Virus record (IMG/VR): IMGVR_UViG_3300036390_000005
Coordinates: 1-39,389 of that record
Strand: one strand, 5' to 3'
DNA: 39,389 nt
Source of the DNA: a virus
Part shown: one piece after another, positions 23,132-28,968 of the stretch
Layout: each line of letters starts with the position of its first letter
How positions within the stretch are numbered: position 1 is the first letter of the stretch
Translations under genes and position numbers: made by a program
Notes under the pieces: model-generated
Database searches by the model: none
What the model saw: only the letters and a program-made list of their open reading frames with translations
Told to the model about the DNA's origin: nothing

Positions 23132-24559
23132 GTGGCAGACCTATCGTATCATCACGGCGTCAAGGTAGCGGAAAGCACCGACGTCCCGGCGCTGCTGCGC
23201 GTCGAAAACTTTGGCGTCACGTTCTTCAACGGCACGGCGCCCGCAGCTGACGCGGCAGTGTTCCCGCTGAACACCCCGACGGTCGTCACCAGCCTGCCAG
23301 GCGCAGCCGCGCTTGGTGCGACCGGCACGCTTCTCGCCGACCTCACCACCTACTTCGGCGAAGGCGGCTCCATTGCGATCGTCAACCGCGTCGAGGACAG
23401 CGAGACGCCGGCGACTCTGCAGGAAAACCTCATCGGCAACGCAGTCGCTCGCACAGGTCTCTACGCTGCACTGAAGGCCAAGGCAGTCACCGGCTACCAG
23501 CCGCGCGTAATCGTGACCGCTGGCGATACCGGCGCATGGATCGACGACGGCGTTGTCTCTGTTGCCGTCACGAACGGCGGCACGGGCTACACCACGGCTC
23601 CGACCGTTGCCATCACGGAAGTTGACGGCGGCACTGGTGCAACCGCGACCGCTACCGTTGTGGCTGGCGTCGTCACGGCAGTCACCGTCACGGCTGCCGG
23701 CTCCGGTTACACCACGGCGGCAGTTGCCTTCTCTGGTGGTGGCGGCACTGGTGCTGCTGCGACGGCAAGCGTTGGCGACGTCGCAAACCCGTTCATCTCC
23801 GCACTGGCCACGATCTGCCCGCAGATCCGCGCCCGCGCATATGTCAACGGCCCGAACACGACCAACGCAGAAGCCATCCGCTTCCGCAACACGGTCAACA
23901 GCGACCGCATCCTGATCATCGACCCCAAGGGCATCAAGAACGTCAGCGGCACGCCCGTCACTGTGCCGATTGCTCCGGTCTTTGCAGGCGTGCGCGCGGC
24001 CGTTATCGCATCGGCTGAAGGTGTATCCGGTTCGGTTTCGAACAAGATCATCAAGACGCTCGACGGCGTTGCGCGCACCATTCAGTACCCGATCGACAGC
24101 AACACCCTGAACGAAAACCAGGTTTCGACAGTCATCAATGAGCGCGGCGGGCTTCGCACGTGGGGCAGCCGACTGGCCACCGACGTCGAGATCTGGCAGT
24201 TCGACAGCGTTCGCGCGACGGCCGACATGGTCAACGAAGCGCTGGAAGACATCTACTTCCAGTGGGTCGACAAGAAGTTCACCAAGGGCAACCTGAAGCA
24301 GATGATCGAAGACGGCAACGCCGCGCTTCGCGTCTTCAAGGCGAACAACGATATCCTCGGCGGCCGAGTCTGGCTGTCCGACCTGAACCAGCCGACAGTC
24401 AACGCCAACGGCAAGGTGTTCCTGAATGTTGAATTCGAGCCCGTCGGCCTGATGGAGCAGATCAACATCACGACCTTCCGCAACATTCTCTACTACCAGG
24501 TTCTGCTCGACGAAGTGCGCGGCCTGATCGAGAACGGCCCGCTGACTCTGGCGCCCTAA
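23132..24559 (+). CDS. Tail sheath protein (gpFI family) with inserted repeat domain
   Basis: 475 aa, starting with GTG behind a near-perfect AAAGGAGG site, as fits a highly made structural protein. It forms the contractile sheath. The N-terminus ([20 protein letters not shown]), the strand [32 protein letters not shown] and the C-terminal [12 protein letters not shown]-like part with [20 protein letters not shown] are family features. An insertion of about 75 residues (141-215) breaks the strand-helix connection in the middle of the sheath fold and holds two copies of a GxGYTTA repeat. Confidence 0.9.
23552..23776 (+). repeat. Two-copy GxGYTTA repeat inside sheath gene
   Basis: Residues 141-176 and 181-214 of the sheath protein are repeats: [19 protein letters not shown] then [18 protein letters not shown], each followed by a Gly-rich turn ([25 protein letters not shown]). 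The DNA also repeats in part (GGNTACACCACGGC). Such beta-rich repeats are known as surface modules in other phage structural proteins, so this is probably an outward-facing decoration. Confidence 0.7.
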
Positions 24560-24582: not shown

Positions 24583-25092
24583 ATGGCTACCAATCTACCG
24601 AGCTTCCTGCTGCGCGACTGCATGCTTTGGGCTGACCGTGAATCCAAGCTTGGCCAGATCGGCGACATCACGCCGCCGGTCCCACAGGTCAAGGTCGAAG
24701 AAATGCGCAACGCGGGGATGATCAAGCCCCGCGAAGTGCAGATGGGATACGAGAAGCTGGAGTTCGGCTTCAAGATGCCCGGCTTCGACCCGCAGGTTCT
24801 GAAGCTGTTCGGCCTTCGCCCCGGCTTTGAAAACCCGTTCATGATCACCGGCGCGCTGGTTGACGAAGACGGCGCCGAGCATTCGGCCGTCATGACCATT
24901 CGCGGCTTCCTAAAGCAGGCTGACGCCGGCACTTGGAAGGGCGGCGATCAGGCTGAAAACGACTACATGGTCTCGGTCAACTACTACAAGCTCGAGGTCG
25001 ACGGCGACCCGATCTACGAGATGGACGACTTCGACATCCTCGTCGGCGGCGTCAGCCAGCGGGCTGGCATCCGCAACGCTCTGTTGCTCTAG
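24583..25092 (+). CDS. Tail tube protein (gpFII family)
   Basis: 169 aa with AAGGAAA before the ATG. FLLRDCMLWADRESKLGQIG, then YEKLEFGFKMPGFDPQVLKL and ADAGTWKGGDQAENDYMVSV are characteristic of P2 FII-type major tail tube proteins (about 170 aa). It forms the inner tube inside the sheath. It follows the sheath gene directly, as in P2. The reverse gene after it ends 4 bases inside its end. Confidence 0.95.
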   Translation: MATNLPSFLLRDCMLWADRESKLGQIGDITPPVPQVKVEEMRNAGMIKPREVQMGYEKLEFGFKMPGFDPQVLKLFGLRPGFENPFMITGALVDEDGAEHSAVMTIRGFLKQADAGTWKGGDQAENDYMVSVNYYKLEVDGDPIYEMDDFDILVGGVSQRAGIRNALLL

Positions 25093-25358
25093 TCCAAGTG
25101 CAAGGCCCGAGCCCTGGCGTTCGGGCCTGCTTCGATGGCCGCATGGACAAGGCGCATGACCACTAAGGCCGCCTCATCCGAAGCCATTCGGTGATTTTTG
25201 TCTAGGGCACGCCGGAACATCGCCACCTCTTCAGTCAGGGCAGGCGTCATCTCTGAATACTGCATCATGTTGGCCAAGTCAGGTTCGCAATCCCGGCCAT
25301 GAGCGACCGCTCGCTTCAGCGCGTCGCCCCAATCCTTGATGTGCTGTTCAATCAGCAT
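25089..25358 (-). CDS. Small reverse-strand protein inside the tail operon
   Basis: 89 aa, mostly helical, with acidic and basic patches (HIKDWGDALKRAVAHGRDCE; MFRRALDKNHRMASDEAALV). GGGAGG precedes the ATG by 5 bases. It is convergent with the tube gene (4-base overlap) and divergent from the next tail gene, with 11 bases between the two starts. No family or membrane segment is recognised. Reverse genes tucked into late operons are often lysogenic-conversion or control genes. The forward strand of this region has no competing long frame. Confidence 0.6.
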   Translation of the reverse strand: MLIEQHIKDWGDALKRAVAHGRDCEPDLANMMQYSEMTPALTEEVAMFRRALDKNHRMASDEAALVVMRLVHAAIEAGPNARARALHLD

Positions 25359-25369
25359 AGGAGCCTCCC

Positions 25370-25705
25370 TTGGGCCACAAAATCATCTTCCCCGGCGTCG
25401 ACGAACTCGTGGCCGTGAGCCTTAGTACCCCATTTCTATTGGTGGGCGAGGAGTGGCCCAAGTCAAGCCAACTGACCTTCTTTGCTGGCCAACTTCCGAC
25501 CGGCGCCGCCAGCTTCTCGTTGAGCTTCGACGGGAGTGACTACGGCACAGACATGGCAGTGGCCGTTCGCCAAGCGATTCAGCAGGTGAACTCCGAATGG
25601 GGGCTGACAGACAACTGGAATCCCGGGACGCACCGATTCACCGGCAGCCGCTCGCAGCCATTCGCACCAATCCACCCACCACATCCCAAGAGGAGACCAA
25701 CATGA
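25370..25705 (+). CDS. Hypothetical tail-module protein, TTG start
   Basis: 111 aa starting with TTG at 25370, with AGGAG (25360-25364) at normal distance. Its stop overlaps the start of the tail assembly chaperone gene (CATGA), which supports its reality. FPGVDELVAVSLSTPFLLVG is followed by a helix (DMAVAVRQAIQQVNSEWG). No known family. It lies where P2-like phages go directly from tube to chaperone, so it is an extra gene in this module. Confidence 0.6.
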   Translation: MGHKIIFPGVDELVAVSLSTPFLLVGEEWPKSSQLTFFAGQLPTGAASFSLSFDGSDYGTDMAVAVRQAIQQVNSEWGLTDNWNPGTHRFTGSRSQPFAPIHPPHPKRRPT

Positions 25706-25962
25706 TTTCTTATACCCTTCGCACGCCAGTCGAGCACAACGGCAAGACCTATTCCGCGCTGACCTTCCGCAGGCCGAAGACCGGCGACCTGATGGTCCTC
25801 GACAACTTCAAGGGCGAGATGTCCAAGACGATCGCGCTGCTCGCCACCATTTCCGACGTGCCGATGCCGGCTTTCAAGGACATCGAGATGGGTGACCTGA
25901 ACGGCATCATCGAAGCCACGGCAGGACTACTGGGAAACGCGCCGGCCACGACTGGCGCCTGA
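25702..25962 (+). CDS. Tail assembly chaperone, short form (gpE-like)
   Basis: 86 aa from the ATG at 25702 with AGGAG before it. KTYSALTFRRPKTGDLMVLD, then ATISDVPMPAFKDIEMGDLN matches the phage tail assembly chaperone family that includes P2 gpE and Mu gp41. Chaperones of this class coat the tape measure protein during tube assembly. A slippery heptamer lies 22 bases before the stop codon and allows a longer form. Confidence 0.85.
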   Translation: MISYTLRTPVEHNGKTYSALTFRRPKTGDLMVLDNFKGEMSKTIALLATISDVPMPAFKDIEMGDLNGIIEATAGLLGNAPATTGA

Positions 25963-26087
25963 TCGCCAGCTTCACGGCGGCTGTGCTGCACACCCCCATC
26001 GACGCCATTGAAGGCTGGGAGCCAGACAAGCTCCTGGCCTACTTCGACAAGGCGCAGGAAGTCCACAAAGTCATGCGGGGCATCTAA
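25702..26087 (+). CDS. Tail assembly chaperone, -1 frameshift product (gpE+E'-like)
   Basis: Ribosomes shifting by -1 at GGGAAAC (25932-25938) would make a 128 aa protein: 79 residues of the short form plus 49 residues ending at the TAA 26085-26087. The added part (HDWRLIASFTAAVLHTPIDA, then a helix DKLLAYFDKAQEVHKVM) has no ribosome-binding site or good start of its own and fills the otherwise empty gap before the tape measure gene. The arrangement copies P2 E/E' and lambda G/GT. Confidence 0.85.
25932..25938 (+). promoter_or_regulatory. Slippery heptamer for -1 ribosomal frameshift
   Basis: GGGAAAC lies in the right phase (G GGA AAC, codons CTG GGA AAC) for tandem slippage; lambda's G/GT site is the near-identical GGGAAAG. 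A perfect 6 bp hairpin follows (CTGGCG 25952-25957, loop CCTGAT, CGCCAG 25964-25969) 13 bases downstream and may stimulate the shift. Confidence 0.85.
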
Positions 26088-28180
26088 TGGCCGTCCTAAA
26101 AAGTTTACTTATCCTCTCGCTGATCGACAACGTCAGCGGCCCGGCTCGCCGCATCAGTGGCGTCATGGCTGGCTTCCAAAAGCAGCAGCTCGGCATGCTT
26201 TCCGCGCTTCGCGGTGCGGGCGGCTTGCTCGCCCTCGGCGCTGGCTATCTCGGCGTTACGCAGGGCATCGGCGCCACAGCTGGCGCGGCCGTTGAATTCG
26301 AAGAGGCGTTCGCCAACGTTCGCAAGGTGCTGAACGGCAGCGACGAGCAGCTGGAGAACATTCGCCGTTCCATCATCGGCATGTCCAAGGACCTGCCTAT
26401 CGCGGCCAGCGGCATCGCGGAAATCTACGCGGCTGCCGGCCAGGCAAACATCCCGATTCAGGAGATGAACAAGTTCGTCGAGATGGTCGCGAAGGTGTCG
26501 ACGGCGTGGGACGTTCCTGTGGCTGAGACTGGCGACGCGCTTGCGAAGATCAAGACGCAGCTGAACCTTGGCGTCGCGGAAGTCGGCCTGTTCGCGGACT
26601 CCCTGAACCACCTTGCGAACAACACGGCAGCCAACGCGCCAAACCTGCTCGAGTACACAAGCCGCGTTGCCGCCACCGGCGAGATGTTTGGCTTCTCGGC
26701 GCAGGAAACGCTGGCATTCGGCGGCGCCATGATTTCGGCAGGCGCCGAGTCGGAAGTCGCGGCTACTTCCTTCCGGAATATGGGCCGGGCGCTGACCAAG
26801 GGCACCGAAGCTACCAAGATGCAGAGGACGGCCTACAAGCGGCTCGGCCTCGACGCGGTGAAGACCGCCAAGAACATGCAGAAGAATGCGTTGGGCACCA
26901 CGCTCGACGTCATTGAGAAGATCCAAGAGCTTCCGGAATGGGAGCGCATCAGCATGGCGTCGGCGCTGTTCGGCGACGAAGCCCGTGCGCTTATGCCGGC
27001 CATCAACAACTCCACGGAGCTTCGGCGCCAGTTGGGGCTTGTTGGCGACCAGGCGAACTATGCCGGGTCGGCGTTCAACGAATACATCATCCGCGCAAAC
27101 ACAACCGGAAACGTCCTGCAGATACTGCGCAACAAGTTTGCTGACCTCTTCCGGGGCATCGGCGACAATATGCTGCCGGGCATCAAGGAAGCGGCGCTAG
27201 GCGTCGGCGACATCATCGACAGCCTCGGCGAGCGCGCGCACGTGTTCTCCCAGATGGAAGCGGCGTTCAAGGGCTTTGCGCAGGGCATGGGTGCCGAGGG
27301 CGGCATCCGCGACATGATCAACGACCTCGGCGACCTGCTATTCGGCGCTGCCGATGGCAGTGCTGCCGCCGACAAGATCGGCCGCATCTTCGTGAAGTTC
27401 AAGGAGTGGGGCGCCGCGGTTCGCGAGCTCACAACCGCGATTGCAGCCAACCCGCTGGTTAAGTTTTTTGCCGACTTGGCACCATACGGCTTCCAGATCA
27501 TGCTGTGGGGCGCAGGCATTGCGATGCTCGCCGGGACCATCCGGAAGCTGGCCGCGGCACTGATGTTCCTGTCAGGCGCGTCGACGATCCTGGCGGCGCT
27601 GAAGGCTGTTGGAAGCATAGCTGCTATTGTTGGCGGCGGCGCTGCTGCGGGTGGTGCGCCGAAAGGCGGACCGACAACCCCAGGCGGCCCAGGCTCACCG
27701 AAAGCAGGCGGGAGCATTTGGAGCACACTCAAGGGGTTGAGTGCAGCCGCATTGGCGCTCGGCGTCGTTACGACGCTTGGCGGCAACGGCGAAGTCACTC
27801 AGTTGACGCCAGAGCAGCGGAACATGATGTTCAACAAGCGCGGGCAGTCACCTGTGACGCCGACCATCCCTGGCATCTCCGCTTTTACCGCACTGGACAA
27901 CGCCACCCACGCTCGCGCCATGGGCTTCGGTGGCTCAACCGAAAACCAGCCGGGCAAGACCAAGGACGACATCGACATCGGCGTGCTGCGTGCGGCCATG
28001 GCGCCGCAGGGCGTCCAGCAGGTCATGGTGACAAACCCGCAAGCGCCGAACGTTACAGTTCACGCGCCGATCACCATAACTGGTGTGGCTGACGGGTCTG
28101 CGGCCGGCAGTGCGGCGGCAAGCCAACTCGGCAACGAGGTGAAGTCGGCTGTCGAATCCGGATATATGGACAGCCGGTGA
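26087..28180 (+). CDS. Tape measure protein
   Basis: 697 aa. The ATG shares a base with the stop of the frameshift product (TAATG). Residues about 70-420 have the TP901/PhageMin tail pattern: EFEEAFANVRKVLNGSDEQL, IYAAAGQANIPIQEMNKFVE, EYTSRVAATGEMFGFSAQET and ASALFGDEARALMPAINNST. Two to three hydrophobic stretches (about 455-530) are expected for the part that enters the host membrane. The C-terminus has a Gly/Pro/Ala-rich loop and FTALDNATHARAMGF. Tape measure length sets tail length; at about 0.15 nm per residue this gives roughly 100 nm. Confidence 0.95.
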   Translation: MAVLKSLLILSLIDNVSGPARRISGVMAGFQKQQLGMLSALRGAGGLLALGAGYLGVTQGIGATAGAAVEFEEAFANVRKVLNGSDEQLENIRRSIIGMSKDLPIAASGIAEIYAAAGQANIPIQEMNKFVEMVAKVSTAWDVPVAETGDALAKIKTQLNLGVAEVGLFADSLNHLANNTAANAPNLLEYTSRVAATGEMFGFSAQETLAFGGAMISAGAESEVAATSFRNMGRALTKGTEATKMQRTAYKRLGLDAVKTAKNMQKNALGTTLDVIEKIQELPEWERISMASALFGDEARALMPAINNSTELRRQLGLVGDQANYAGSAFNEYIIRANTTGNVLQILRNKFADLFRGIGDNMLPGIKEAALGVGDIIDSLGERAHVFSQMEAAFKGFAQGMGAEGGIRDMINDLGDLLFGAADGSAAADKIGRIFVKFKEWGAAVRELTTAIAANPLVKFFADLAPYGFQIMLWGAGIAMLAGTIRKLAAALMFLSGASTILAALKAVGSIAAIVGGGAAAGGAPKGGPTTPGGPGSPKAGGSIWSTLKGLSAAALALGVVTTLGGNGEVTQLTPEQRNMMFNKRGQSPVTPTIPGISAFTALDNATHARAMGFGGSTENQPGKTKDDIDIGVLRAAMAPQGVQQVMVTNPQAPNVTVHAPITITGVADGSAAGSAAASQLGNEVKSAVESGYMDSR

Positions 28181-28489
28181 TTACTCGACAGCGAGGACGC
28201 CAATCGACCTCGCTGTCGACCTTGCGATAGTGCAGTCAGACGGCGTCGGTTTTCCCAAGAATTCGGCCGTCTGCACCGAAGAGCTAATGAATGAAAGCGT
28301 TTCTGGGTTGTCCAGACCGCTCTTTGCAAAATACTCGTCCAGTTTTGCCTGATCTATCTCGTAACCACACGCGGCCGATTTTGCCATGATCTCCGCCAGG
28401 CCGTTCGCCTTCTGCATCAATTGCAGGTCCATCTGCGCAATTGCACCAGTCGATACGAGCGTCGTCAAAAGCGTCAGCACTGCACGCAT
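28181..28489 (-). CDS. Exported small protein next to tape measure gene
   Basis: 102 aa from the ATG at 28489, which has GGGAGG 8 bases before it; the upstream extension is not needed. The first 18 residues (MRAVLTLLTTLVSTGAIA) form a signal peptide with a likely cleavage site before QMDLQ. The mature part is helical with two cysteines (AACGYEI; PSDCTIA) that could form a disulfide in the periplasm. It is convergent with the tape measure gene with no base between the stops and sits in reverse inside the late operon. Its exported nature and position suggest a lysogen-expressed protein acting in the cell envelope, for example in blocking DNA injection by related phages; this is inference. Confidence 0.7.
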   Translation of the reverse strand: MRAVLTLLTTLVSTGAIAQMDLQLMQKANGLAEIMAKSAACGYEIDQAKLDEYFAKSGLDNPETLSFISSSVQTAEFLGKPTPSDCTIARSTARSIGVLAVE

Positions 28490-28524
28490 TAGATCATCCT
28501 CCCACACGTCATCAAGGAGCGCCC

Positions 28525-28968
28525 ATGTCCGGACCAGTCGCAATGGCACTAGGGCCATTTACGTTTGAGGCCATCGGCTTCGGCTACGGTGACGTAGGAA
28601 GACGGGTACAAACGCCATGGACTGAAGTCAAGGTTGCGCAGTCATTGGACAGGCAGCAGTGGCTCGGCCCGACGTCCGAAGAGGTCACAATCAAGGGGGT
28701 TCTCTTCCCCGCGCAATACGGCGGGCAGGAGTCACTGGACGGCATCATCTCGGCCGCCATGTCCGGCACGCCACTGATGCTTGTTTCGGGCACTGATGGA
28801 GCGGGCGTCATTCACGGGCAGTTCTCGATTCAGTCCGTCGATGAAGACCGCAGCTTCCACGACGCCAACGGCACGCCGCGCAAGAATTCCTACACGATCA
28901 CGCTGAAGCGCATGTCCGACGCGTCCATCGGCGGAGCCGTGGCGTCAATCGTCAGCCTGTTCGGCTAA
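28525..28968 (+). CDS. Tail protein gpU
   Basis: 147 aa from the ATG at 28525, behind AAGGAG. ALGPFTFEAIGFGYGDVGRR, then SLDRQQWLGPTSEEVTIKGV and FPAQYGGQESLDGI are the hallmarks of the P2 gpU family, a small baseplate-hub component linking tube and hub. Length matches the family (about 130-160 aa). The gpU-gpX-gpD order is as in P2. Confidence 0.9.
   Translation: MSGPVAMALGPFTFEAIGFGYGDVGRRVQTPWTEVKVAQSLDRQQWLGPTSEEVTIKGVLFPAQYGGQESLDGIISAAMSGTPLMLVSGTDGAGVIHGQFSIQSVDEDRSFHDANGTPRKNSYTITLKRMSDASIGGAVASIVSLFG

Follow-up and report, generated by a model that had tools for sequence, protein, structure and literature searches.

Programmed -1 frameshifting predicted in the gpE-type tail chaperone gene of a virus with a contractile-tail module, at a slip site conserved among relatives

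The tail assembly chaperone gene of virus record IMGVR_UViG_3300036390_000005 almost certainly directs a programmed -1 frameshift in a gpE-type chaperone, in the architecture of the lambda G-GT and P2 E-E' genes; we infer the slip itself from sequence comparison, through which the slip site, a conserved -1 domain and the gene order can be recognised. The record, a stretch of 39,389 bases that was analysed as a whole, is referred to here as the window. A family profile search revealed within it a contractile-tail module in which a PF10109 chaperone, scoring well above the curated cut-off of 25 bits for that family, sits between the tail tube gene upstream (PF04985) and the tape measure gene downstream (PF10145). 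The features of this region are the following.

23132–24559: sheath (PF17482, barely above its cut-off)
24583–25092, plus strand: tail tube protein FII (PF04985, E = 2.8e-38)
25702–25962, plus strand: gpE-like frame-0 tail assembly chaperone, 86 aa (PF10109 Phage_TAC_7, 47.5 bits, E = 1.8e-12; PHROG 166, tail protein)
25932–25938, plus strand: putative slippery heptamer G_GGA_AAC (read from the sequence; also found in phase, again where the chaperone frame ends, in 38 further loci)
25938–26087, plus strand: predicted extension E' in the -1 frame, 49 aa followed by TAA (HMM trained on 36 other loci, E = 1.5e-19; AlphaFold2 pLDDT 93)
25952–25969, plus strand: 6-bp inverted repeat CTGGCG/CGCCAG spanning the frame-0 stop (seen in the sequence and in the computed fold)
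26087–28180, plus strand: tape measure protein, 697 aa (PF10145 PhageMin_Tail, E = 2.8e-40; PHROG 28, E = 1.5e-69)
28525–28968, plus strand: gpU-like tail protein (PF06995, E = 7.6e-29)

Three further ORFs lie in the same region. The stop codon of a 111-aa ORF at 25370–25705 (plus strand) overlaps the ATG of the chaperone (ATGA), which suggests that the two are translationally coupled; this ORF has no significant family match in Pfam, PHROGs or NCBIfam. Two minus-strand ORFs are located amid the plus-strand tail genes, one at 25089–25358 (89 aa) without a family match in Pfam, PHROGs or NCBIfam and one at 28181–28558 (125 aa) without a match in NCBIfam, the library scanned in its case, and both may be morons.

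Near its end the chaperone frame, which terminates at TGA 25960–25962, reads CTG GGA AAC, so that GGGAAAC at 25932–25938 lies in X_XXY_YYZ phase, as the sequence-only reading had proposed. The two frames overlap around the heptamer: the -1 frame runs without a stop from 25896 to 26084 and is closed by TAA 26085–26087, whose last base is also the first of the tape measure ATG (26087–26089). After AAA this frame contributes 49 codons, giving a predicted fusion of 79 + 49 = 128 aa. The extension of 49 residues up to a TAA overlapping the tape measure start, as originally read from the sequence, is thus confirmed, and all coordinates given in that reading are correct. GGGAAAC by itself is not rare, with four copies in the window versus 4.7 expected. 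Nine other window genes, 4685 codons in all, contain no in-phase XXXYYYZ (Y = A or T), and GGA is a minor glycine codon in them (23 of 425); from codon usage, about 1.5% of Gly-Asn pairs would be expected to be written G-GGA-AAC. In seven other loci the heptamer is unchanged relative to the window and the preceding 222 nt are just 52–65% identical to it. Judged from these sequences, conservation of the heptamer among relatives is far above chance. Inspection by eye for an upstream Shine-Dalgarno-like stimulator found AGGA 5 nt before the window heptamer, a motif not conserved in relatives.

The 128-aa fusion, used as a direct query against genome and viral contigs, retrieved no relatives, and these were reached instead via the tape measure protein and a chaperone alignment. 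A total of 127 loci of PF10109 type, some of them near-identical, were pooled from tape measure relatives, from bacterial genomes of the family and order to which the Shinella relative belongs, searched with PF10109, and from an alignment search of viral contigs. An E'-like -1 frame was detected by the E' HMM in 101 of the 127 loci, 65 of which played no part in training the model, and 98 of these 101 have an in-phase slippery site. The site class was taken as the first in-phase match in the frame overlap, and the 98 sites comprise 39 GGGAAAC (window included), 14 GGGGGAG, 13 GGGAAAG and 32 others, including 8 TTTTTTG and 7 CCCTTTC; because only the first match is counted and some loci have several sites, single class assignments may be wrong, for example in L124 and L125. 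In these two loci the end of the chaperone frame holds two in-phase heptamers in one overlap, GGGAAAC and, 12 nt downstream, A_AAA_AAG. Among the 26 loci without an E'-like frame, 17 have no slippery site. Conservation of the heptamer and of the -1 frame among relatives, which had been named as the check on the proposed frameshift, is borne out by these counts. In three loci, L018, L028 and L037, an E'-like -1 frame is present and no slippery heptamer was recognised in phase; where the E'-like frame begins, none of the three showed a start codon accompanied by a clear ribosome-binding site.

These counts also bear on whether the frame break could be a sequencing error or the mark of a decayed gene, with the heptamer present by coincidence. 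The window virus is known from sequence alone, which leaves room for such an explanation; however, about 100 loci, drawn from viral contigs as well as bacterial genomes, show this break in the same position, with E' intact each time, and on the strength of this conservation we regard error or decay as already refuted, its remaining probability being negligible. Relatives that lack the heptamer and begin the second part at a separate start were also sought. The tape measure relatives found without the heptamer, L011 (Shinella) and L012 (Rhizobium), carry a chaperone that is different or has diverged, and both lack a -1 extension altogether. Their tape measure proteins are about 55% identical to that of the window, and because a related tape measure protein is accompanied there by a different chaperone without extension, the chaperone appears, from these sequences, to be exchangeable relative to the tape measure gene.

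The extension E' is recognisable as a domain in its own frame. An HMM built from the 36 other loci, with the window excluded, matched 25896–26084 in a six-frame translation of the window, and the runner-up had an E value of 0.077. The AlphaFold2 model, built with 15 locus sequences, has a mean pLDDT of 93 and helices at residues 6–17, 21–24 and 29–46, which predicts a confident helical domain and agrees with the helical style ascribed to the extension from its sequence. A fold search gave no PDB match and no significant match among viral models, as expected for only 49 residues, and no significant model for the E' part was found in Pfam, PHROGs or NCBIfam. Substitutions in E' lean just slightly to third codon positions because the sequences are too diverged.

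The extension had also been said to have no start site of its own. In-frame start candidates do occur within E', one GTG (25983) and one ATG (26073), and neither is preceded by a recognisable Shine-Dalgarno sequence. These two codons, together with the listing of E' as a separate hypothetical protein in some records, are what would favour independent initiation of E' as a small gene in its own right, an explanation that we consider very improbable: initiation at GTG 25983 would remove the conserved DWRLI part and initiation at ATG 26073 nearly all of E', the -1 frame of L004 has no start codon at all, and a separate gene would leave the conserved heptamer unexplained.

The perfect 6-bp hairpin that had been noted after the heptamer, CTGGCG-CCTGAT-CGCCAG, is indeed present and begins 13 nt after it; a role for it as stimulator is unsupported. 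We used sliding-window folding, group comparison and a synonymous-codon null to evaluate this structure. The 102 nt after the heptamer have a folding z of -1.0 relative to dinucleotide shuffles. Dependence of the frameshift on the hairpin is suggested by its presence in the window and by the non-redundant GGGAAAC loci, in which the fold just after the site is stabler than that of the sequence flanking it (mean z -1.61 at the site; paired p = 0.003, post hoc). We nevertheless find this dependence unlikely, because the effect in the GGGAAAC group is gone once the null holds codon usage and the peptide of the -1 frame constant (mean z -0.2, p = 0.34), the window itself gives p = 0.135 under this synonymous-codon null, the GGGAAAG group has no such folding signal, and the distance between stem and heptamer varies among relatives, being greater in several of them than in the window. 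The stem derives largely from codons of the conserved DWRLIA stretch. Given that the hairpin is not above the nulls, that its stem comes from the DWRLIA codons and that its distance shifts, it most likely arose as a by-product of the coding sequence, and no conserved stimulating structure was found after the heptamer. Another candidate, hairpins that compensate AAC but not AAG sites, was promising with n = 7 and weaker with n = 18 (p = 0.02), and was rejected with the AAC sites unsupported under the codon null.

In the frameshift that we propose, most ribosomes would stop at TGA 25960–25962 and yield the 86-aa protein, and a minority would pause with tRNAs on GGA and AAC and then re-pair one base back, on GGG and AAA. 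The slipped ribosomes would read the -1 frame to TAA 26085–26087, resulting in the 128-aa fusion with its added helical domain of 49 aa. If the two forms act as in lambda G/GT, the short one would coat the tape measure protein, and the less numerous long ones would carry tail tube subunits to it via the E' domain, with the result that the tube would polymerise to the right length. In lambda, gpG attaches to the tape measure protein, and it is through its T domain that gpGT recruits the tube subunit (PMC5009743). Shift rates of 6–7% have been measured for two phage chaperone genes (PMC3711429), and G_GGA_AAC has been reported as the g-t shift site of the haloarchaeal virus HCTV-1 (PMC5009743). 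For the window we infer a slip involving tRNA-Gly and tRNA-Asn at a rate that would give a few percent of fusion, with the chaperone roles as outlined.

The heptamer of lambda G/GT is GGGAAAG, which like that of the window is of the G_GGA_AAN type; the A-site codon is AAG in lambda and AAC in the window, and the tail of lambda is non-contractile whereas the tail module of the window is contractile. As predicted for the window, lambda shifts to the -1 frame shortly before the chaperone frame ends and just ahead of the tape measure gene (PMC5009743). P2 E/E+E' resembles the window in that the chaperone gene of a contractile tail is flanked by those for the tube and the tape measure protein and that the -1 extension overlaps the tape measure start and has no ribosome-binding site of its own; in P2 the -1 frameshift takes place at T6G instead of GGGAAAC (PMC3931495). 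The sequence-only reading had described the window as a copy of these two systems; because its heptamer ends in AAC, not in the AAG of lambda, and P2 uses T6G, the architecture is the same and neither site is copied.

Further counterparts are found in three phage records. Burkholderia phage Mica (MT701586), reached with a consensus-like query written by hand from relatives, has a PF10109 chaperone right before the tape measure gene, with the joined frameshift product annotated, and differs from the window in having AAATTTT in phase. Chaperone E of Paracoccus phage vB_PyeM_Pyei1 belongs to the same family (39% identity) and has an E'-like -1 frame; unlike in the window, the in-phase heptamer is GGGAAAG, the extension (pyei1_p51) is annotated separately as a hypothetical protein and minus-strand genes follow E'. 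Chromohalobacter phage YPCBV-1 has the same layout with TTTTTTG in phase, and E' is recorded as a separate hypothetical protein. The expectation that the long product would be lost in automatic annotation therefore holds for Pyei1 and YPCBV-1, which list the extension separately, but not for Mica. In L007, L008 and Pyei1 (L133, 1613–2631), the E' frame and the tape measure gene are separated by inserted DNA, so that the usual overlap of the two is lost.

At L016, L017, L022, L025, L033, L045, L095–L097, L099, L126, L127, L129 and L130, G_GGG_GAG stands in place of the G_GGA_AAC or G_GGA_AAG of relatives and E' is intact. Altogether 16 loci have G_GGG_GAG or GGGGGAA, at a homologous position where this can be aligned (LMGE vs LMGN). 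These sites resemble a GGGGGAA motif reported in actinophages by PRFect (PMC10885494), and they are the one mildly unusual point, located outside the window. We see evenly balanced chances that in rhizobial phages and prophages one homologous slippery position, after LLG or LMG, holds G_GGA_AAC, G_GGA_AAG or the non-canonical G_GGG_GAG and so offers a natural set for measuring the exchange of slip-site chemistry at a maintained product ratio; if true, the set would include one slip that obliges the A-site tRNA to re-pair with GGA.

A -1 frameshift in the tail chaperone is a standard device of most long-tailed phages, and as a mechanism it has been familiar since lambda and P2 (PMC5009743, PMC3931495). 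Because of this, and because the fusion of Mica was already annotated within PF10109, the window represents a further example of a known mechanism and leaves the current understanding of tail assembly unchanged. It adds a well-conserved case, in a family for which the fusion was missed in two of the three public records examined, and the family survey provides a usable aligned set of slip sites, including GGGGGAR sites without a canonical heptamer, for testing slippage of the bacterial ribosome.
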